A stretch of 64,000 bases of DNA, taken from positions 1 to 64,000 of the forward strand of contig CAJTEA010000009.1 of the NCBI GenBank assembly GCA_910575265.1, in the 5' to 3' direction. The translations under genes and the position numbers were made by a program. The stretch's first letter is position 1; each line of letters begins with the position of its first letter. Positions 6,631 through 43,026 of this stretch are shown here, in pieces. This DNA comes from Oscillospiraceae bacterium. Lineage in GTDB: Bacteria > Bacillota > Clostridia > Oscillospirales > Oscillospiraceae. The notes under the pieces were generated by a model, which was not told the origin of the DNA, ran no database searches, and was given only the letters and a program-made list of their open reading frames with translations.

Positions 6631-7332
6631 ATGGACAATTCTTTTTTACACAGCAAAAAGCTCCTGCTGGTCGATGACGAGCCGGAGCTTTTGAAAATGG
6701 TATCAGCTATTTTAACGGACGAGGGCTTTCAGCGCCTTGTGACCGCCGACAATATGAAAGAGGGAATTGCCGCCGCTAAAGCGGAAAAACCTGATCTGGC
6801 GATTTTGGATGTGATGCTCCCGGACGGCGACGGCTTTTCCCTGATGGAGCAGATCCGCGCGTGGACGGATATTCCCGTGGTTTTTCTGACGGCCCGTGAC
6901 GAGGCTGCGGACAAGCTGGCGGGACTGGGCCTTGGAGCGGACGATTATATCGCGAAGCCCTTTCTGCCCCAGGAATTTCTGTTGCGGGTTTACGCCGTTC
7001 TGCGCCGGTGCTACAAAGAGGACGCAACCGTTTTGAAGCTGGATGGCTGTACAGTGGATTTCAGCCGGGCAGAAGTGGACAAGAGCGGTCAGATACTCCC
7101 TTTGACAGCGATGGAGCATAGGTTGCTGGAAACTCTGGCGAAGAATGAGGGCCGCATTGTGACCGTGGACACGCTTTGCGAGGCTCTATGGGGCGACAAT
7201 CCTTTTGGCTATGAAAACAGCTTGAACGCCCATGTGCGGCGTGTCCGGGAGAAAATCGAGGCAGACCCGTCCAAGCCAGTCTCCCTGCTGACAGTCAAAG
7301 GGCTGGGCTATAAGCTACTGGCAAGGAAATAA
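6631..7332 (+). CDS. OmpR-family response regulator
   Basis: A 233-aa DNA-binding regulator. The receiver domain (about 10-122) has the acidic pair D15-D16, phospho-acceptor D60 in LAILDVMLPDGDG, the switch Thr in FLTARD and K109 in IAKPF. A winged-helix domain follows (about 135-232) with the family motif NSLNAHVRRVREKIE and GLGYKLL. The cognate kinase is at 8243, unusually separated by a phosphoesterase gene. The probable targets are the GTAAGG repeats in front of the divergent ABC operon. The start at 6631 is preceded by GGGGAGA. Confidence 0.93.
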   Translation: MDNSFLHSKKLLLVDDEPELLKMVSAILTDEGFQRLVTADNMKEGIAAAKAEKPDLAILDVMLPDGDGFSLMEQIRAWTDIPVVFLTARDEAADKLAGLGLGADDYIAKPFLPQEFLLRVYAVLRRCYKEDATVLKLDGCTVDFSRAEVDKSGQILPLTAMEHRLLETLAKNEGRIVTVDTLCEALWGDNPFGYENSLNAHVRRVREKIEADPSKPVSLLTVKGLGYKLLARK

Positions 7333-7355
7333 TGCGTGGGAGATAAACAAGGGCC

Positions 7356-8219
7356 ATGAAAAAAAGCCATTCCAAAACACATTTGCTTTTCTATGTCCTG
7401 ATAACAATGCTGCTTGCCTTGATCGTATGGACGATTTGGGGAAATACAGCGTTAATGGCAAATTCAATTACTCTTTCCGGCAATCAGATACCCTCGGAGT
7501 TTTCCGGGTTTAGAATTGCACAGGTTTCTGATCTGCATAACGCTGAATTTGGAGAAGAAAACTCGCATTTATTAAACAGCCTTTCCGAAAGCAAGCCGGA
7601 TATGATTGTAATAACGGGCGATTTGGTAGACGCACATCATACGAACATAGATGTTGCTCTTTCTTTTGCTGAAAAGGCGGTTCAAATTGCGCCGGTCTAT
7701 TATGTGACGGGCAATCACGAAGCCAGCCTGTCACGGTACAGTGAGCTTAAAACAGGACTTGAAGCCGCTGGCGTGATCGTTCTTGAGGACAAAGCAATAC
7801 AGCTTGAACACAACGGCGGTATTGTCACTTTGATGGGGCTTTCAGACCCTAATTTTACAATTAAAAGTAATATCTTCGATGAAGTCCCCGCTATGATAAG
7901 CACCAAGTTGAATGAACTGATGGAAAATAAGGCTGGCTATACGATTTTGCTTTCACACAGGCCGGAATTGTTTGATACCTATGTAAGCTGCGGCGTCGAT
8001 TTAGTTTTAAGCGGTCATGCACACGGCGGGCAATTTCGGTTGCCACTGATCGGCGGGCTGGTTGCTCCCAATCAGGGATTTTTCCCAAAGTACGATGCTG
8101 GCCTATATTCAGACGGCGGCACAAATATGGTTGTCAGCCGTGGCCTTGGAAACAGTATCATACCGCTTCGTTTCAATAATCGGCCTGAAATCGTATTAGT
8201 AGAGCTTACGGCAGATTGA
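7356..8219 (+). CDS. Membrane-anchored metallophosphoesterase, YkuE-like
   Basis: A 287-aa calcineurin-type phosphoesterase. After one N-terminal membrane segment (about 8-27) come the metal motifs in order: QVSDLHN, ITGDLVDAHH, YVTGNHEA, SHRPE and GHAHGGQ. The catalytic domain should face outside the cell. Related YkuE/LpxH-like enzymes hydrolyse phosphate esters of envelope components; the substrate here is unknown. Its place between a response regulator and the kinase next to a peptide exporter suggests a cell-envelope job. It is 23 nt after the regulator. Confidence 0.85.
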   Translation: MKKSHSKTHLLFYVLITMLLALIVWTIWGNTALMANSITLSGNQIPSEFSGFRIAQVSDLHNAEFGEENSHLLNSLSESKPDMIVITGDLVDAHHTNIDVALSFAEKAVQIAPVYYVTGNHEASLSRYSELKTGLEAAGVIVLEDKAIQLEHNGGIVTLMGLSDPNFTIKSNIFDEVPAMISTKLNELMENKAGYTILLSHRPELFDTYVSCGVDLVLSGHAHGGQFRLPLIGGLVAPNQGFFPKYDAGLYSDGGTNMVVSRGLGNSIIPLRFNNRPEIVLVELTAD

Positions 8220-17715: not shown

Positions 17716-17745
17716 TTGACAGGGAGTTGGAGGTTTTGTTATACT
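17716..17745 (+). promoter_or_regulatory. Promoter of lar-nik operon
   Basis: A consensus TTGACA (17716-17721) and TATACT (17740-17745) with an 18-nt spacer. Transcription should start near 17752, 2 nt before the first helix of the leader. Confidence 0.85.
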
Positions 17746-17751
17746 GAGTGC

Positions 17752-17880
17752 GCGGCAGGAAGCTGCGGGGAGGCCAGAAGGCCGTTGAAAACACAGATGG
17801 AACGAAATATACAGGACAATCGCCCGGCGCGGAAGCTCGGGGGTCTGCCAGAAGGCATACCAGTTTGGTGTGCTTTTTTT
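17752..17880 (+). ncRNA. Switch-like leader RNA of nickel-pincer operon, class unknown
   Basis: A roughly 130-nt leader between the promoter and larE. Three competing helices can be drawn. P1 pairs GGCAGG (17754-17759) with TCTGCC (17844-17849). An antiterminator pairs GGTCTGCC (17842-17849) with GGCATACC (17854-17861) around an AGAA loop, with one mismatch. A terminator pairs GCATACC (17855-17861) with GGTGTGC (17867-17873) and is followed by seven T. P1 would block the antiterminator and so favour termination. This is the layout of a transcriptional OFF riboswitch. I do not recognise a known class; nickel or the cofactor is a guess based on the downstream genes. Confidence 0.6.
17852..17880 (+). 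terminator. Leader attenuator upstream of larE
   Basis: GCATACC-AGTTT-GGTGTGC followed by TTTTTTT ends 22 nt before the larE start codon and after the operon promoter, so it can only act as a conditional terminator. Confidence 0.8.
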
Positions 17881-17902
17881 GTTGTCCGGGAGGGTGCCAG
17901 CC

Positions 17903-18658
17903 GTGACCTTGGAACAATTTTTTTCACAGAATCCCCGAGCCGCCATAGCCTTTTCCGGCGGTGTGGACTCCGCCTTTCTGCTGTGGGCAGGGATAGAGGC
18001 GGGGGCTGAGGCGCGGCCTTACTTTGTTAAAACTCCCTTCCAGCCCCAATTTGAGCTGGAGGACGCCCAGCGGCTGTGTACGCGGCTGGGGGCGGAGCTG
18101 ATCGTGGTGGAGTTTGATATTCTATCCGACCCGGCGGTGGCCGCCAACCCGGCGGACCGCTGCTACCACTGCAAAAAACGGCTGTTTTCCTTACTGCGGG
18201 AGCGGGCGGCGGCGGACGGCTTCTCCCTGCTGCTGGACGGCACCAACGCCTCGGACGACGCGGGGGACCGCCCCGGTACGCGGGCCCTGCGGGAGCTGGA
18301 GGTCCGTTCTCCCCTGCGGGAGTGCGGGCTGACCAAAGAGATGATCCGGGCGCGGTCCAAACAGGCCGGACTGTTCACCTGGGACAAACCCTCCTACGCC
18401 TGTCTGGCTACCCGGGCGCCCACCGGACAGACCATTACCCGGGAGGCTCTGGAGAAGGTGGAACGGGGTGAGGCGCTGCTGTCCGGGTTGGGGTTCCGGG
18501 ACTTTCGCCTGCGGCTGACAGCGGGCGGGTGCAGGCTCCAGGTGACAGAGGAGCAGTTTTCACTGGTCCAGCGGTATCGGGAGGACATTTTAACCGGGCT
18601 GGCCCCCCTGTTTTCGGAAATTGTGTTAGATTTAAAGCCCCGAATCCCCATAGACTGA
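17903..18658 (+). CDS. larE: LarE, ATP-dependent sacrificial sulfur transferase
   Basis: LarE adenylates the carboxylates of the nickel-pincer precursor and donates sulfur from its own cysteine, becoming dehydroalanine. The PP-loop SGGVDS is at residues 18-23, and the sacrificial cysteine is conserved as C167 in KPSYACLATR; CYHCKK (87-92) is a further family feature. I chose GTG at 17903 because GGGAGGGTG stands 8 nt upstream; the open frame to 17870 begins inside the leader terminator. Length is 251 aa, normal. First gene of an eight-gene operon. Confidence 0.93.
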   Translation: MTLEQFFSQNPRAAIAFSGGVDSAFLLWAGIEAGAEARPYFVKTPFQPQFELEDAQRLCTRLGAELIVVEFDILSDPAVAANPADRCYHCKKRLFSLLRERAAADGFSLLLDGTNASDDAGDRPGTRALRELEVRSPLRECGLTKEMIRARSKQAGLFTWDKPSYACLATRAPTGQTITREALEKVERGEALLSGLGFRDFRLRLTAGGCRLQVTEEQFSLVQRYREDILTGLAPLFSEIVLDLKPRIPID

Positions 18659-18674
18659 GGAGGTTGACACAACA

Positions 18675-19433
18675 ATGGACAACCGGCACGATATTTTACA
18701 GCTCCTGCGCCAGGTGGCCGACGGCTCCGCAACCCCGGAGGAGGCGCTGTCCCGGCTGAAGCGGGCGCCCTTTGAGGACCTGGGCTACGCCAAGGTGGAC
18801 TTTCACCGGGGGGTGCGCCAGGGGGCGGCGGAGGTCATTTACGGAGCGGGCAAGACCCCGGAGCAGATCGCCGGTATCGCCGCCGCCATGGGAAAGCGGA
18901 GCTGTAAAAACGTCCTGATTACCCGCCTGAGCCCCCAGGCGGCGGAGCTGGTGGGGAAAACCGTCCCCTTGGACTACCACCCCATCCCAAAGCTGGCGGT
19001 CGCCTATCCAGGGGAGCGGAACGCTTTGGGCCACATCGTTGTGGCCACTGGCGGAACCAGCGATATGGCGGTGGCGGAGGAGGCCGCCCTCACCGCCGAG
19101 GTGCTGGGCAACCGGGTCACCCGGCTGTACGACGTGGGGGTGGCCGGCCTGCACCGGCTGTTGTCCAACCTGGAGCCGCTGATGAGCGCCCGGTGTGTGG
19201 TGGTGGTGGCCGGGATGGAGGGGGCGCTGGCCTCGGTCATCGGCGGGCTGGTGGACTGCCCCGTGGTCGCCGTGCCCACCAGTGTGGGCTACGGGGCCAA
19301 CTTCGGCGGCCTGTCCGCCCTGCTCGCCATGCTCAACTCCTGCGCCTCCGGATGCGGCGTGGTAAACATCGACAACGGCTTTGGAGCCGGATATCTGGCC
19401 AGTATGATCAATCAGATGGAGGGATTGGAATGA
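18675..19433 (+). CDS. larB: LarB, pyridinium dicarboxylate synthase
   Basis: LarB carboxylates and hydrolyses nicotinic acid adenine dinucleotide to give the dicarboxylated precursor of the nickel-pincer cofactor. The 252-aa protein has the family N-terminus (LRQVADGSATPEEAL) and a PurE-like C-terminal domain with VATGGTSDMAVAEEA and GYGANFGGLSALLAMLNSC. AGGAGG precedes the ATG at 18675, 16 nt after larE. Its stop overlaps the larC start in an ATGA. Confidence 0.93.
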   Translation: MDNRHDILQLLRQVADGSATPEEALSRLKRAPFEDLGYAKVDFHRGVRQGAAEVIYGAGKTPEQIAGIAAAMGKRSCKNVLITRLSPQAAELVGKTVPLDYHPIPKLAVAYPGERNALGHIVVATGGTSDMAVAEEAALTAEVLGNRVTRLYDVGVAGLHRLLSNLEPLMSARCVVVVAGMEGALASVIGGLVDCPVVAVPTSVGYGANFGGLSALLAMLNSCASGCGVVNIDNGFGAGYLASMINQMEGLE

Positions 19434-20644
19434 AAACCTTATATTTGGAATGCGATATGGGGGCGGCGGGGGATATGCTCATGGCCGCCCTGTACGAGCT
19501 GCTGAGCGAGGACCAGCGGAAAACCTTTCTGGATATGATGAACCGTCTCGGCCTGCCCGGAGTGGAGGTTACCCCGGTGCCCGCGAAGACGGGCGGCATT
19601 GCGGGCACTCATATGAGGGTGACGGTCCACGGCCACGAGGAGCACGAGCACCACCATGACCATGACTGCGAACACCACCACCATCACCATCACGCCACGC
19701 CGGGACACATCGGAGAGATAATCGACGGCCTGTCCATGCCCCGAGAGGCAAAAGAGAGGGCCCGACAGGTCTATGACGCCATCGCCCAGGCCGAGGCTCA
19801 GGCCCACGGCTGTGAGGTGGGGGACGTCCACTACCACGAGGTGGGAGCGCTGGACGCGGTGGCCGACGTCACTGGCGTGTGCTGCGCCCTGTATCTTCTG
19901 GCCCCGGATCAAATTTGCGCCTCCCCGGTCCATGTGGGCAGCGGAACGGTGAAATGCGCCCATGGCGTTATGCCCGTCCCGACTCCGGCCACCGCCGCGC
20001 TGCTCACCGGAATCCCCGCTTACGGCGGGACCATTCAGGGCGAGCTGTGCACCCCCACTGGGGCGGCGCTGCTCAAGTGCCTTGTCCAGAGCTTCGGCCC
20101 CATGCCCGCCATGGTCACGGAGAAGATTGGCTATGGCGTAGGGACCAAGGAGTTTGCACAGGCCAACTGCGTCCGGGCTTTCCTGGGGGAGAGCGGCCAG
20201 GGGGCCAACGGGGAGATTGTGGAGCTGGTGTGCAACCTTGACGACATGTCTCCCGAGGCCCTGGCCTTCGCCTGCTCCCGCCTGCTGGAGCTGGGGGCGC
20301 TGGACGTATACACCACCCCCGGAACCATGAAGAAGGGCCGGTCAGGCCATGTGCTCACCGTCCTGTGCGGCCCGGATCAGGAGGGGGAGCTGGCCCGGCA
20401 CATCCTGGCCCAGACCACCACCAACGGCCTGCGCTCCCGCCGGTGCGGAAAGTATTTCCTCACCCCCGGCGCGGAACAGGTACAGACCCAGTGGGGCCCG
20501 GTACGGGTGAAGCTGGCCCAGGGATACGGCGTGTCCCATGTGAAGCCCGAATTTGAGGACGCGGCCGCCCTGGCCCGGGAAAACAATCTGCCCATTCAGA
20601 CCGTATTAGAGGACGCGTTGGAGCGTTGGGAGAGTCAAACATGA
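19430..20644 (+). CDS. larC: LarC, nickel-pincer cofactor nickel insertase
   Basis: LarC inserts nickel into the sulfur-modified precursor in a CTP-dependent reaction. The 404-aa protein begins MKTLYLECDMGAAGDMLMAA, has the conserved VHYHEVGALDAVADVTG and KCAHGVMPVPTPATAALL blocks, and a histidine-rich loop at about 67-88 (seven His in a row) suited to holding nickel. No programmed frameshift is seen between the two halves, so it is a single continuous frame. The start at 19430 overlaps the larB stop (ATGA); the longer open frame from 19193 is antiphase to larB. Confidence 0.93.
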   Translation: MKTLYLECDMGAAGDMLMAALYELLSEDQRKTFLDMMNRLGLPGVEVTPVPAKTGGIAGTHMRVTVHGHEEHEHHHDHDCEHHHHHHHATPGHIGEIIDGLSMPREAKERARQVYDAIAQAEAQAHGCEVGDVHYHEVGALDAVADVTGVCCALYLLAPDQICASPVHVGSGTVKCAHGVMPVPTPATAALLTGIPAYGGTIQGELCTPTGAALLKCLVQSFGPMPAMVTEKIGYGVGTKEFAQANCVRAFLGESGQGANGEIVELVCNLDDMSPEALAFACSRLLELGALDVYTTPGTMKKGRSGHVLTVLCGPDQEGELARHILAQTTTNGLRSRRCGKYFLTPGAEQVQTQWGPVRVKLAQGYGVSHVKPEFEDAAALARENNLPIQTVLEDALERWESQT

Positions 20645-22197
20645 AAAAGACAGCTCTTTTCCTTCTGGCCCTCCTCCTGCTCGCCTCCTGCGGAAGGCGG
20701 AACGAGGGCCAGTTCACCTCAGAGCCGGGGATATCCAAGCCGCTGACTGTGGTCATGCCCCCCACCTCAGAGCCGGAAGCCGGCTTCGACCCCGCCTTTG
20801 GCTGGGGGGCGGGGGAACATGTCCATGAGCCGCTGATCCAGTCCACCCTGACGGTGACCAATCCCGACCTGACCATCGGCTATGATCTGGCCACCGGCAT
20901 GGAGGCCAGCGAGGACAGCCTGACCTGGACGGTCACCCTCCGGGACGATGTGAAATTTACCGACGGAGAGCCGCTCACCGCCGAAGATGTGGCCTTCACT
21001 TACAATACAGTGAAAAGCACCAGCTCAGTCAGCGACTTCACCATGCTGGACTACGCCGAGGCGGTGGATGAGACCACCGTGGTCTTTCATATGACCCGGC
21101 CCTTCTCCATCTGGCCCTACACCATGGCTATCACAGGCATTGTGCCCGAACACGCCTATGATCCGGCCACCTATGGCTCCAACCCCATCGGTTCAGGCCG
21201 GTACGTCCTGAAGCAGTGGGACCGGGGCCAGCAGGTTATTCTGGAGTACAACCTGGACTACTACGGCCAGCAGCCCCGGATGGAAAAGGTGACCATCCTG
21301 TTCATGGAGGAGGACGCCGCCTTTCTGGCCGTCCAGGCGGGGCAGGCGGATGTGGCCTACACCTCCGCCACCTATTCCGACCAGAGCGTGGACGGCTACT
21401 CCCTGCTGTCCGTCCAGACGGTGGACAACCGGGGGATCAACCTGCCTGTCTGGAACAACGATTTTACCGCCGACCCGCTGGTCCGCCGCGCCATGAACTT
21501 AGGCGTGGACCGGCAGGCTGTAATCGACCACGTCCTCAACGGCTACGGCACCCCAGCTTACAGCGTGTGCGACAGAATGCCCTGGTGGAACAGCGCCGCC
21601 GCTGAGGTATCCAACGCCCCGGAACAGTCAAAAGCCCTGCTGGATCAGGCCGGCTGGCTTCCCGGGCCGAACGGGGTCCGGGAAAGGGACGGGGTTCGGG
21701 CCTCGCTCACCATCCACTACGCCGCCGGAGACTCGGCGCGCCAGGGGATCGCCGCCGAGCTGGCAAACCAGTTCCAGGAGCTGGGCATTGAGACGGACAT
21801 CAAGGGGGTGGGCTGGGACACCGCCTACACAGACGCCCTCAGCAATCCCCTGGTCTGGGGCTGGGGGGCCCATACCCCCATGGAGCTGTACAACATCTAT
21901 CACACCGCCCCCGGCTCGGACAGCGCCCTGTACTCTCCCTACGCCAACCAGAGCGCGGACGAGCTGATGGACGCGGCCCTGGCCTGCCCCGACCTGGAGG
22001 AATCCTACGCTCTGTGGCGGCAGGCCCAGGAGGAGATCGCCGCCGATGTGCCCTGGGTGTGGCTGGTGAACGTGGACCACCTGTACTGGGTCCGGGACGG
22101 CCTGGAGGTGGCGGAGCAGAAGATCCACCCCCACGGCCACGGGTGGTCCATCGTCAACAACGTGGATCAATGGAGCTGGGAATGGGACATCGGCTGA
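20641..22197 (+). CDS. Nickel/peptide ABC transporter substrate-binding lipoprotein
   Basis: A 518-aa family 5 solute-binding protein, exported and lipid-anchored (LLLLASCGRR, Cys17). The DDVKFTDGEPLTAEDVAFTYN motif region (about 101-121) and NPIGSGRYVL are typical of NikA/DppA-type proteins. Family 5 proteins bind peptides or metal chelates. Nickel is inferred because the gene overlaps larC by 4 nt and heads a complete five-gene importer in the same operon. The start at 20641 is preceded by GGAGAG. Confidence 0.85.
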   Translation: MKKTALFLLALLLLASCGRRNEGQFTSEPGISKPLTVVMPPTSEPEAGFDPAFGWGAGEHVHEPLIQSTLTVTNPDLTIGYDLATGMEASEDSLTWTVTLRDDVKFTDGEPLTAEDVAFTYNTVKSTSSVSDFTMLDYAEAVDETTVVFHMTRPFSIWPYTMAITGIVPEHAYDPATYGSNPIGSGRYVLKQWDRGQQVILEYNLDYYGQQPRMEKVTILFMEEDAAFLAVQAGQADVAYTSATYSDQSVDGYSLLSVQTVDNRGINLPVWNNDFTADPLVRRAMNLGVDRQAVIDHVLNGYGTPAYSVCDRMPWWNSAAAEVSNAPEQSKALLDQAGWLPGPNGVRERDGVRASLTIHYAAGDSARQGIAAELANQFQELGIETDIKGVGWDTAYTDALSNPLVWGWGAHTPMELYNIYHTAPGSDSALYSPYANQSADELMDAALACPDLEESYALWRQAQEEIAADVPWVWLVNVDHLYWVRDGLEVAEQKIHPHGHGWSIVNNVDQWSWEWDIG

Positions 22198-23168
22198 GAT
22201 TTACGGCGAGAAAGCTGGCGCGCATGGTCCTGCTTCTGCTGGGGGTGAGCCTGACCGCCTTTCTGCTGATGAACGCCTCCCCGCTGGACCCCCTCCAGAC
22301 CAACGTGGGCCAGGCGGCGCTGGGGGCCATGTCCCCGGAACAGATCGCCAGACTGGAAGAGTACTGGGGGGTGAACACCCCGGCGGCGGAGCGGTATCTC
22401 CGTTGGCTGGGGGACGCCCTCCGGGGGGATTTTGGAATCTCCCTGCTCTACCGCCAGCCGGTGCTGGAGGTGATCGGCCAGCGGCTTTCCAACTCGTTGT
22501 GGCTGATGGCCTCCGCCTGGGTGCTGTCTGGAGCGCTGGGACTGGCCCTGGGTGTGCTGGCGGGGACCCGCCGGGGGCGGTGGCCGGACAGGCTGGTCCG
22601 GGGATACTGCCTGGTGATCTCCAGCACCCCCTCCTTCTGGCTGGCCCTGCTGCTGTTGATGGTTTTTTCCGTGTGGCTGGGAATACTGCCCATCGGTCTG
22701 GCCGTCCCCATCGGCGCGGAACACGCCGGCGTCACACTGCTTCAGCGGCTTCGCCACGCTATTTTGCCCGCGCTTACCCTGTCTGTCACCGGCGTGGCGA
22801 ATATCGCCCTCCACACCCGGGAGAAAACAGCCGACGTGATGGAGCGCGATTACATCCTCTTCGCCCGGGCCAGAGGGGAAACCGCCATTGTCCGCCGCCA
22901 TGTGCTGCGCAACGTGGCCCTGCCCGCTCTGACTCTGCAATTTGCCTCCATCGGTGAAATCGCGGGCGGCTCTGTGCTGGTGGAACAGGTCTTTTCCTAT
23001 CCCGGCCTGGGTCAGGCGGCGGTCTCCGCCGGACTGGGGAGCGACATGCCCCTTCTGCTGGGCATTACGGTGGTCACCGCCGCTATGGTGTTTGGAGGGA
23101 ATTTGGCCGCCGATCTGCTCTACGGCGTGATTGATCCCCGCATCCGAAGGGGGGCGGCCGGAACATGA
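22182..23168 (+). CDS. NikB-like ABC importer permease
   Basis: A permease of the DppB/NikB type with six membrane segments. It has the N-terminal NASPLDPLQTN extracytoplasmic segment, and the EAA-type cytoplasmic loop RARGETAIVRRHVLRNVALP. I prefer ATG 22182 (328 aa), which has GGAG 6 nt upstream; ATG 22170 is an in-frame alternative with no ribosome site. Either start overlaps the end of the binding-protein gene, indicating coupling. Confidence 0.85.
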   Translation: MGHRLRFTARKLARMVLLLLGVSLTAFLLMNASPLDPLQTNVGQAALGAMSPEQIARLEEYWGVNTPAAERYLRWLGDALRGDFGISLLYRQPVLEVIGQRLSNSLWLMASAWVLSGALGLALGVLAGTRRGRWPDRLVRGYCLVISSTPSFWLALLLLMVFSVWLGILPIGLAVPIGAEHAGVTLLQRLRHAILPALTLSVTGVANIALHTREKTADVMERDYILFARARGETAIVRRHVLRNVALPALTLQFASIGEIAGGSVLVEQVFSYPGLGQAAVSAGLGSDMPLLLGITVVTAAMVFGGNLAADLLYGVIDPRIRRGAAGT

Positions 23169-23983
23169 AAAACCGACGCGGCCGCGCCCTGTTCCTTCTG
23201 CTCATTGCCATAGGGCTGCTGTGCGCTGTCACTGTGGCCGGGGGACTGCTGGCCGGTTCGGCGGAATTTGCCGATTTTTCCCGAAAAAATCTTCCCCCCT
23301 GCCTGGCTTTCCCCTTTGGAACCGACCGGATGGGCCGGGATATGCTGGCGCGCGCCCTGGCCGGACTGTCTCTCAGTATCCGGATCGGCGCGTTTACTGC
23401 CGTAATCAGCGGAGCGGTCGCCCTGCTTTTGGGGACGGCCTCCGCCCTTCTGGGCGGTCCGGTGGACGCGGCCATATCCTGGGTCATCGACCTGGTCATG
23501 GGTGTCCCCCACATCCTGCTTATCATCCTCATCTCCATCGCCTGCGGAAAGGGGACCTTTGGTGTGGTGGCCGGAGTGGCCCTCACCCACTGGCCCTCCC
23601 TGGCAAGGCTGCTCCGGGGGGAGGTGCTCCAGCTGAAACAGGCCCCCTACATTCAAATGGCCCGGCGGCTGGGGGCCTCCTGGGGCAGGGTGCTGTGGGG
23701 CCACTTTCTGCCCCACCTGCTGCCCCAGTTTCTGACGGGGATGATTTTACAGTTCCCCCACGCCATTCTCCATGAGGCCAGCGTCACCTTCCTGGGCTTC
23801 GGCCTGCCGCCGGATCAGCCCGCCATCGGGGTCATTCTGGAGGAGAGCATGGCCTATCTGTCCACCGGTCGGTGGTGGCTGGCCCTGTTCCCGGGGCTGT
23901 CTCTGGCGCTGACGGTGGCGCTGTTTGCCCTGCTGGGGGAGCGGCTGCGCCTGCTGCTGTCCCCCGTCAGGTCCCAGGAATAG
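23165..23983 (+). CDS. NikC-like ABC importer permease
   Basis: A 272-aa permease of the DppC/NikC type, the partner of the preceding permease. FGTDRMGRDMLARALAGLSLS (about 56-76) is the family's periplasm-facing signature, and ARRLGASWGRVLWGHFLPHL is the loop that contacts the ATPases. Its ATG overlaps the upstream stop by 4 nt. Confidence 0.88.
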   Translation: MKNRRGRALFLLLIAIGLLCAVTVAGGLLAGSAEFADFSRKNLPPCLAFPFGTDRMGRDMLARALAGLSLSIRIGAFTAVISGAVALLLGTASALLGGPVDAAISWVIDLVMGVPHILLIILISIACGKGTFGVVAGVALTHWPSLARLLRGEVLQLKQAPYIQMARRLGASWGRVLWGHFLPHLLPQFLTGMILQFPHAILHEASVTFLGFGLPPDQPAIGVILEESMAYLSTGRWWLALFPGLSLALTVALFALLGERLRLLLSPVRSQE

Positions 23984-23992
23984 GAGGGGATT

Positions 23993-24799
23993 ATGGAACC
24001 GATTCTGAACGTCGCGCATCTGTCCGTCACGTTTTCCAGGTATGGCCGGGGCTTCTCCAGGACAAAGCTGTCCGCCATTGAGGACCTGTCCCTCACTGTG
24101 GACCCGGGTCAGGTGGCGGCGGTGGTGGGCTCCAGCGGTTCCGGAAAGAGCCTGCTGGCCCATGCGATTTTTCACATCCTGCCCCCAAACAGCCGGGTGG
24201 AGGGGACCCTTCTCTATGACGGCGCTCCCCTCACCGCCCATCGGGCGGCGGAGCCGCGGGGCCGGGAGCTGGTTCTGATTCCCCAGGGGGTCACATACCT
24301 GGATCCCATGATGAAGGTGGGGCCCCAGGTTTGCCGGGGGAGACGTGACCCCGCCGTCCGCGCCCGCTGCCGGGAGGTGCTGAAGCGCTACGGTCTGGGG
24401 CCTGATGTGGAAGATCTCTATCCCTTCCAGCTGTCCGGCGGGATGGCCCGGCGGGTACTGATCGCCTGCGCCGTCATGGAGCGGCCCCGGCTCATTGTGG
24501 CCGACGAGCCCACCCCCGGCCTGGATGCCCGGACTGCCCAGCGGGTAGTCGGTCACTTCCGGGAGCTGGCCGACCGGGGCGCGGGGGTGCTGCTCATCAC
24601 TCATGACCTGCCGCTGGCCCTGTCTGTCGCCGACAAAATCGTGGTGATGCACGCCGGACAGACTGTAGACGAGATTTCCGCCGATCAGCTTCAATCGGGG
24701 TACGGTCCATCCCACCCATACACCCGCGCCCTGTGGCGGGCCATGCCCCAAAACGGGTTCGCGCCCCCTTCCGGGGATTTGGAGGAGTGGCTGACATGA
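23993..24799 (+). CDS. NikD-like ABC importer ATPase
   Basis: A 268-aa ATPase with Walker A GSSGSGKS (about 43-50), signature LSGGMARRV and Walker B LIVADEPTPGLDA, followed by the switch His in LITHDLPLALS. With the next gene it forms the heterodimeric motor of a nickel/peptide importer. AGGAGGGG lies before the ATG, 9 nt after the permease stop. The C-terminal SHPYTRALWRAMP region is common to Opp/Nik ATPases. Confidence 0.9.
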   Translation: MEPILNVAHLSVTFSRYGRGFSRTKLSAIEDLSLTVDPGQVAAVVGSSGSGKSLLAHAIFHILPPNSRVEGTLLYDGAPLTAHRAAEPRGRELVLIPQGVTYLDPMMKVGPQVCRGRRDPAVRARCREVLKRYGLGPDVEDLYPFQLSGGMARRVLIACAVMERPRLIVADEPTPGLDARTAQRVVGHFRELADRGAGVLLITHDLPLALSVADKIVVMHAGQTVDEISADQLQSGYGPSHPYTRALWRAMPQNGFAPPSGDLEEWLT

Positions 24800-25413
24800 C
24801 TTTGGAAGCAAAAAACCTCACCTTCCGCTACCCGCACGGGGGGAGCGCTCCTGTGCTGGACGGAGTGAGCCTAACCCTGCGCTCCGGGGAGCGGCTGGGT
24901 CTGTCCGCCCCCAGCGGGCGAGGAAAGACCACCCTGTGCAAGCTGCTGGCCGGCTGGGAGAAGCCGGCCAGCGGCCAGGCGCTGCTGGAGGGCGTCCCCG
25001 TCTCTCAATACAGGGGCTTCTGCCCGGTTCAGCTGCTGTGGCAGCACCCGGAGGAGGGGGTGGACCCGCTCCGAACGCTGCGGAGCACCCTGTATGAGGC
25101 CGGACCGGTGGACCGCCGGGTGATCGAGGGCCTGGGTATCCAGGACAGCTGGCTGGAGCGCTACCCCGCGGAGCTGTCCGGCGGGGAGCTCCAGCGCGTC
25201 AGCGTGGCACGGGCTCTGGGGCCGGAGCTGCGTTTTCTGCTGTGCGACGAGGCCTCCGCCATGCTGGACCTGATTACCCAGGTCCGGCTGTGGCGGTTTC
25301 TGCTGGCCCAGGCAGAAGAGCGGGAGCTGGGCCTGCTGGTGGTCAGCCACGACATCTGTCTGCTGGAACAGATCTGCGCCCGGGTACTCACATGGGAGGA
25401 GCTGACCGCATAA
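24796..25413 (+). CDS. NikE-like ABC importer ATPase
   Basis: A 205-aa ATPase, somewhat shorter than typical NikE because the C-terminal substrate-class tail is lacking. It has a Walker A variant PSGRGKTT (about 38-45), LSGGELQRVSVARAL and the degenerate Walker B region FLLCDEASAMLD. The ATG at 24796 overlaps the previous stop (ATGA); the open extension to 24733 is inside that gene. Last gene of the operon. Confidence 0.87.
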   Translation: MTLEAKNLTFRYPHGGSAPVLDGVSLTLRSGERLGLSAPSGRGKTTLCKLLAGWEKPASGQALLEGVPVSQYRGFCPVQLLWQHPEEGVDPLRTLRSTLYEAGPVDRRVIEGLGIQDSWLERYPAELSGGELQRVSVARALGPELRFLLCDEASAMLDLITQVRLWRFLLAQAEERELGLLVVSHDICLLEQICARVLTWEELTA

Positions 25414-42910: not shown

Positions 42911-43014
42911 AAAGTAGCGCTTCCTACGATTTCCTCCGGCGGCATTATCCGCATCAGGTTCAAGGGTCGAAGGTCTACCTTCCTCTCAGCCTGTCACACA
43001 AGCTCCCCTGCTAT
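42911..43014 (-). ncRNA. TPP riboswitch (thi element)
   Basis: On the minus strand the aptamer has the P2/J motif GGCTGAGAGG, the P3 region, and then TTGAACCTGATGCGGATAAT with GCCGCCGGAGGAA, matching the conserved TPP-binding core (CTGAGA and ACCTGA...GGATAATGCC). Binding of thiamine pyrophosphate should favour the adjacent terminator and shut off thiM. The RNA looks complete although its gene is truncated. Confidence 0.93.
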
Positions 43015-43026
43015 GTTGTTTTCCAC

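Follow-up and report, generated by a model that had tools for sequence, protein, structure and literature searches.

The guanidine-II (mini-ykkC) riboswitch consists of tandem hairpins with conserved short ACGR loops closed by C-G pairs, the NiCo riboswitch is known from positions before exporter genes, and LarR of Lactiplantibacillus plantarum is a DNA-binding regulator which co-regulates synthesis of the nickel-pincer nucleotide (NPN) and nickel import. The RNA targets of ANTAR-domain antiterminators consist of two hairpins, the second of which is embedded in a terminator, and according to two reports these proteins need hexaloops with A1 and G4, Met172 of EutV being thought to exclude smaller loops (PMC3369931, PMC8934654). 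Among transporters, the Pfam family PF12822 also holds the queuosine transporter QrtT, and the queuosine enzyme QueK is described as a nucleoside hydrolase and not a kinase (PMC11130926). A description of the element presented here, of any RNA controlling NPN genes, or of an NPN transporter was not found in the open-access literature that was searched.

The window, i.e., the whole stretch of 64,000 nucleotides of DNA that was analysed, contains a lar operon whose leader (17751-17880) is a real, conserved attenuator built as an array of short hairpins with the common loop motif C-[A(N)GAA]-G (Table 1). Four such hairpins were located, H1 and H2 forming a first pair and H3 and H4 a second one after a gap of about 40 nt between H2 and H3, and an intrinsic terminator uses the 3' arm of H4 as its own 5' arm. 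The folding energy of the window leader was unremarkable when taken alone (z = -1.04), and the evidence for the leader is thus comparative. A covariance model of H1-H2, designated R2, matched 17751-17785 with 42.4 bits, one row of the model coming from this very site, and gave only a weak match of 16.2 bits on the H3 region (17823-17859), which is under a chance-level match at 25012. The search against Rfam 15 returned no match in the window leader, either at the gathering threshold or at E <= 10, and two additional sets of leaders, from 17 and 19 loci, gave none either, in agreement with the suggestion of an earlier first-pass annotation of this DNA that the leader belongs to no known class. 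The proposal in the same annotation that a switch-like leader governs nickel-pincer genes was supported; larE, larB and larC, downstream of it, all scored above curated cut-offs. Elsewhere in the window, a tRNA gene (RF00005, 17530-17613, minus strand) and the lar leader are oriented divergently, a sequence resembling a promoter being located on the minus strand at 17671-17643, and a TPP riboswitch (RF00059) was found at 42914-43019 on the minus strand with 64 bits.

Table 1. Features of the lar leader and of the operon downstream of it
Feature	Position	Strand	Evidence and remarks
Sigma-70-type promoter, TTGACA - 18 nt - TATACT, TG ahead of the -10 box	17716..17745	+	11/12 consensus positions
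Hairpin H1, CGCGGC-[AGGAA]-GCTGCG	17751..17767	+	Starts at predicted transcription start; covariation
Hairpin H2, GGCC-[AGAA]-GGCC	17772..17783	+	4 nt after H1, completes first hairpin pair; alignment, covariation
Hairpin H3, CCCG...C-[GGAA]-G...CGGG	about 17823..17841	+	Inner C-G pair 17830-17835, opens second pair; alignment, pair counts
Hairpin H4 (antiterminator), UGCC-[AGAA]-GGCA	17846..17857	+	Alignment, pair counts, overlap with terminator
Intrinsic terminator, GGCATACC / GGTGTGC(U) plus seven T	17854..17880	+	Arms 17854-17861 and 17867-17873; T-run 17874-17880
larE, sacrificial sulfur transferase of NPN synthesis	17903..18658	+	Start GTG 17903; TIGR00268, 228 bits (cut-off 150)
larB	18675..19433	+	NF033503, 278 bits (cut-off 175)
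larC, exact start unsettled	19430..20644	+	TIGR00299 and NF052512, above cut-off
nikA-like substrate-binding lipoprotein, approximate start	20641..22197	+	Top NCBIfam match nickel_nikA, 137 bits, under cut-off (393)
nikBCDE-like permeases and ATPases, nickel/peptide-type importer	22170..25413	+	Nik and Opp families, all under curated cut-offs

To compare the leader with those of relatives, larE was searched for in 60 genomes and a match was obtained in 26, of which 22 were within the genus. At 21 of these 22 genus loci, hairpins with such loops were found within 260 nt upstream of larE, and at the remaining one the element heads a nik-lar operon and is located 5.5 kb upstream. The four-hairpin form was observed in 14 genus leaders, the window's own counted, and the other seven were variants, in which loops like ACGAA occur, while no array was found at the four larE loci which represent other families within the order. 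The consensus promoter reported by the first-pass annotation has the same layout throughout this close group, since TTGACN and TATACT at a spacing of 17-18 nt were present in all 14 leaders, with H1 starting 6-8 nt downstream of the -10 box in every case. Across 13 aligned leaders, the four hairpins had 94.3% of cells paired and 13 compensatory cells in comparison to 5.8 in shuffles. In the leader omitted from the alignment (L002, 1115-1292), about 58 nt spanning the H2-H3 spacer and H3 are duplicated in tandem. The terminator before larE, which had likewise been read from the window, retained its eight inner pairs in all 13 aligned leaders, so that no close relative in the alignment has lost it.

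The fold drawn in the first-pass annotation fared less uniformly. It consisted of a long-range helix P1 (GGCAGG at 17754 with TCTGCC at 17844), an antiterminator and the terminator, and it contained none of the hairpins H1, H2 and H3. The two P1 strands are complementary in the window, yet none of the six pairs showed a compensatory change in 13 leaders, and the covariation score of 0.122 did not rise above the 0.136 obtained in shuffles; covariation was the very property on which that annotation had staked the helix. One aptamer of about 95 nt with P1 as its closing helix is thus unsupported, and P1 was rejected. The letters assigned to P1 are instead part of the local hairpin H1 and of H4. 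For the antiterminator, the core TGCC-AGAA-GGCA (17846-17857) was retained with 96.2% of cells paired, and the outer GGTC/TACC extension had to be given up, being mismatched in the window and not conserved. In the same way, the mutual exclusion of antiterminator and terminator stands, because they have a strand in common, and the part of P1 as a third partner falls with its missing covariation.

Beyond the genus, 80 larE loci were scanned, many of them from Lachnospiraceae or Oscillospiraceae and one from Acidaminococcus, and 77 had at least 200 nt upstream. The results showed that at least two such hairpins were located within 330 nt upstream of larE at 25 of the 77 loci, and at least three at 13 of them; four of the 25 (L035-L038) appear to have been counted already in the genus set. 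For at least two hairpins, 100 dinucleotide shuffles gave a mean of 0.03 and a maximum of 1, and none of 80 stretches within coding sequence qualified. The array was not found in the other 52 upstream regions, in some of which larE is not the first gene. A small ORF separates the element from larE in Acidaminococcus provencensis (L091, about 7027-8000). When 24 diverse H1-H2 pairs were aligned, compensatory change was observed at 9 of the 10 stem pairs, with 81 compensatory cells in comparison to 25.5 in shuffles and a covariation score of 0.851 in comparison to 0.207, and the loop letters A(N)GAA (ANGAA in the 5-nt loop and NGAA in the 4-nt loop) and the closing C-G pair were almost invariant. 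The percentage of paired cells in these 24 rows, 96.7%, is inflated because the row-selection rule demands stems, and the shuffle test on the 77 larE upstream regions is the fairer control.

The overlap between hairpins and terminator seen in the window recurs in most of these leaders. Among 38 leaders bearing H1-H2, 35 have an intrinsic terminator that overlaps, with its 5' arm, another hairpin of this loop type farther downstream, the count being confined to the leader so that hairpins in coding sequence were not taken as terminators. Among the three exceptions, L080 has a hairpin with an internal loop which was rejected by the scoring script, and no terminator was found in L187 and L189, where the ribosome-binding site is probably the controlled part, by way of a hairpin. 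Many leaders outside the close group have an additional NGAA hairpin at the tip of the terminator, and the number and spacing of hairpins differ among leaders. An expression platform with mutually exclusive hairpins is thus present, and since the conserved loop lies on the hairpin which excludes the terminator, whatever binds it should turn the genes ON. The anatomy therefore speaks against the OFF switch that had been proposed earlier for this leader.

The genes which follow the element were collected with the R2 model. In 40 relatives, the 17 best R2 places (E <= 0.0015), nine of which came from outside the rows of the model, were located before larE in 13 cases, before nik of a nik-lar operon in one, before an ECF S-component in two and before a FecCD operon in one. 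Ten R2 places were inspected individually, and two of them (L177 and L178) were real, while the eight weaker ones (L179-L186) were in apparent coding sequence with no terminator. The scan of 393 genomes of the class, in which 17 candidates were scored per genome and the number of finds is thus a lower bound, gave at least four finds beyond G000, comprising S-components of the same family in three more families and a place in G329 (E 4.5e-4) with no array or clear gene. A search of the same 393 genomes with a pattern of the last hairpin, ATACCANGAAGGTAT, gave 36 matches in comparison to 14 for the reversed pattern. The S-component genes had been located independently by protein search, and 23 of the 36 matches were directly upstream of one of them. 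Another match, in G357, heads an operon read as a cbiM-like gene, two further transport genes, larE, larB and larC; of the other 12, one is accompanied by a partner hairpin at the end of a contig (G448), and seven among those inspected were without a partner. In a set of 30 pattern loci, a second hairpin of at least 5 pairs was present upstream at 13 of 21 S-component loci in comparison to 0 of 7 chance loci. The element thus precedes NPN synthesis genes and S-component genes, and larA was not under it at the 22 loci searched (20 larA loci and two operons of S-component and larA), none of which gave an R2 match. We infer that the element marks a regulon for NPN supply, acting on synthesis where larEBC exist and on salvage elsewhere, so that, of the earlier suggestion that this RNA senses a metal or cofactor, the link to NPN is supported. 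The FecCD operon under the element (L145, 4216-7944, in G050) encodes a permease, an ATPase and a binding protein together with a SAM methyltransferase and may be another cofactor importer.

The distribution of the S-component family in comparison to that of LarA and LarE bears on what is imported. The family (PF12822) was present in 153 of the 393 genomes, and its genes adjoin genes for a protein of uridine-kinase fold. Of 44 genomes with LarA and without LarE, 36 had it, in comparison to 14 of 44 genomes with both, and the gene abuts larA in two genomes (L271 and L272), neither with an R2 match. The element was observed at 11 of the 30 best S-component loci, and no known riboswitch was found before the S-components that are free of the element. 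The genomes with an S-component (G005) and with the FecCD operon (G050) under the element have a strong LarA and no LarE above cut-off, unlike G001, in which no strong LarA match was found. On the other side of the distribution, no match to PF09861 (LarA) was obtained in G000 at E <= 0.001 despite its larEBC genes, and none in 14 close-group genomes at E <= 1e-10. About 15% of analysed genomes have larBCE without larA (PMC11796402), and a close group without LarA is thus a known kind of case and no contradiction. Weak PF09861 matches (profile 145-194) recurred in many genomes in proteins of about 380 residues, which, as a guess, are perhaps DUF362-like. In L204 (2015-3067) and its relatives, the kinase has, fused to its N-terminus, a domain of about 170 residues with the motif YPxMQIQDMxKLIYQNEFAGGH and no Pfam match, and a structure search with the whole fusion gave a confident identity for the kinase half only.

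Taken as a whole, we consider it moderately probable that the element represents a new family of cis-regulatory RNA whose loops are read by a trans-acting factor and which controls NPN supply. The element is built of two to four short hairpins with C-[A(N)GAA]-G loops, usually in adjacent pairs (5-nt ANGAA, about 3 nt, 4-nt NGAA), with one set near the start of the transcript; the last hairpin shares a strand with the terminator, whose place is probably taken in two leaders by a hairpin at the ribosome-binding site. The loops would be recognised on the emerging RNA by a factor acting in trans, most probably an RNA-binding protein; the first pair would load the factor, and the last hairpin, when held by it, would block the terminator (ON), which would form when the factor is absent (OFF). 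Since binding would turn on a supply regulon, the factor would have to be active when the product is short, presumably during a shortage of NPN or nickel. In organisms that make NPN the element would control larEBC and nickel import, and in LarE-less organisms its target would be an ECF S-component, frequently accompanied by a nucleoside kinase, and a pincer nucleoside would be imported and re-phosphorylated there. The conserved hairpins, their covariation, their overlap with the terminator, the genes downstream and the co-occurrence are thereby observed, and the factor, its protein nature, its signal and the cargo of the S-component are inferred. Counting against this reading are the lack of a canonical LarA in the close group and in about half of the S-component genomes, the larA loci without an R2 match, and the S-component and larE loci at which the element was not seen. 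The more specific reading, to which we give somewhat less than even credence, is that this dedicated NPN control RNA serves a salvage route of S-component and uridine-kinase-like protein in LarE-less gut Clostridia, in which the dephosphorylated pincer cofactor would be taken up and re-phosphorylated for LarA, i.e., a cross-fed cofactor placed under antitermination by an RNA-binding protein.

A small-molecule riboswitch, in which a metabolite such as NPN or a pincer precursor would bind directly to the paired hairpins and no protein would be involved, was judged unlikely. The regulon does fit a single cofactor, tandem small hairpins can form an aptamer as in guanidine-II, and no common reader protein was found, the ANTAR domain being missing from 6 of 22 genomes. 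However, conservation is confined to the loops and the closing pair while the number and spacing of hairpins vary by leader, which favours repeated protein-binding sites over a small ligand, and binding would stabilise the terminator-excluding hairpin and switch the genes ON, whereas a product normally shuts its supply pathway off.

It is less likely still that the S-component imports other cargo, for instance some other nucleoside vitamin or a precursor of queuosine, and that the genes under the element have a signal other than NPN in common. This possibility draws on the size of the family, on the inclusion of QrtT in PF12822 and on LarA (E <= 1e-10), which is missing from 76 of the 153 S-component genomes, and part of the family may thus carry something else. 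It is countered by the leader which S-components have in common with larEBC, by larA being contiguous in two genomes and by the enrichment among genomes with LarA and without LarE. Queuosine salvage as the role of S-component and kinase was lowered because QueK is a hydrolase.

Direct sensing of Ni2+ by the RNA is very improbable. Nickel importers do lie downstream, and the cbiM-like/lar operon of G357 is of the same kind, and nickel was favoured at first as the direct signal; this view lost weight when nik and cbiM-like genes following the element turned out to adjoin lar genes or to share a run with them, so that nickel is not an independent link, and direct binding would switch import ON with the metal, with no match to a metal riboswitch in Rfam. 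That the element is the target of the genome's ANTAR-domain antiterminator is scarcely credible, in spite of the two-hairpin architecture with the second hairpin in the terminator and the one ANTAR protein encoded in G000, and is largely refuted. The loops have 5 and 4 nt in place of the A1/G4 hexaloops, and the domain was not found in 6 of 22 genomes; of these six, G349 is 99% complete and another genome 81%, and completeness values are lacking for three.

If the favoured reading of a loop-read antitermination element holds, the element provides an unbiased handle on the control and transport of NPN, as it predicts NPN-supply genes and names a candidate transporter and a candidate kinase. It also bears on the function of LarA in organisms without LarE, and it points to an RNA-binding antiterminator for which a defined bait of 35 nt is at hand.

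The element can thus be placed among the systems described. With the ANTAR dual-hexaloop antiterminators of the eut, nas and ami leaders, where binding of the ANTAR protein turns expression ON, it has in common small hairpins whose loop letters are conserved and of which the later one overlaps the terminator, and it differs in having 5-nt and 4-nt A(N)GAA loops, often in two pairs, instead of A1/G4 hexaloops. It resembles guanidine-II in its tandem, C-G-closed, short-loop hairpins and is distinguished from it by the A(N)GAA loops, the lack of an Rfam match and other downstream genes. Both the NiCo riboswitch and the element are linked to nickel genes, the element being located before genes of cofactor synthesis and import and having no Rfam match. 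The S-component linked to the element belongs to the same Pfam family (PF12822) as the QrtT/QueT ECF S-components, and its neighbours are instead a nucleoside kinase or larA and not known queuosine salvage genes. The same co-regulation of NPN synthesis and nickel import is achieved by LarR, which binds DNA, whereas the element described here is a leader RNA.
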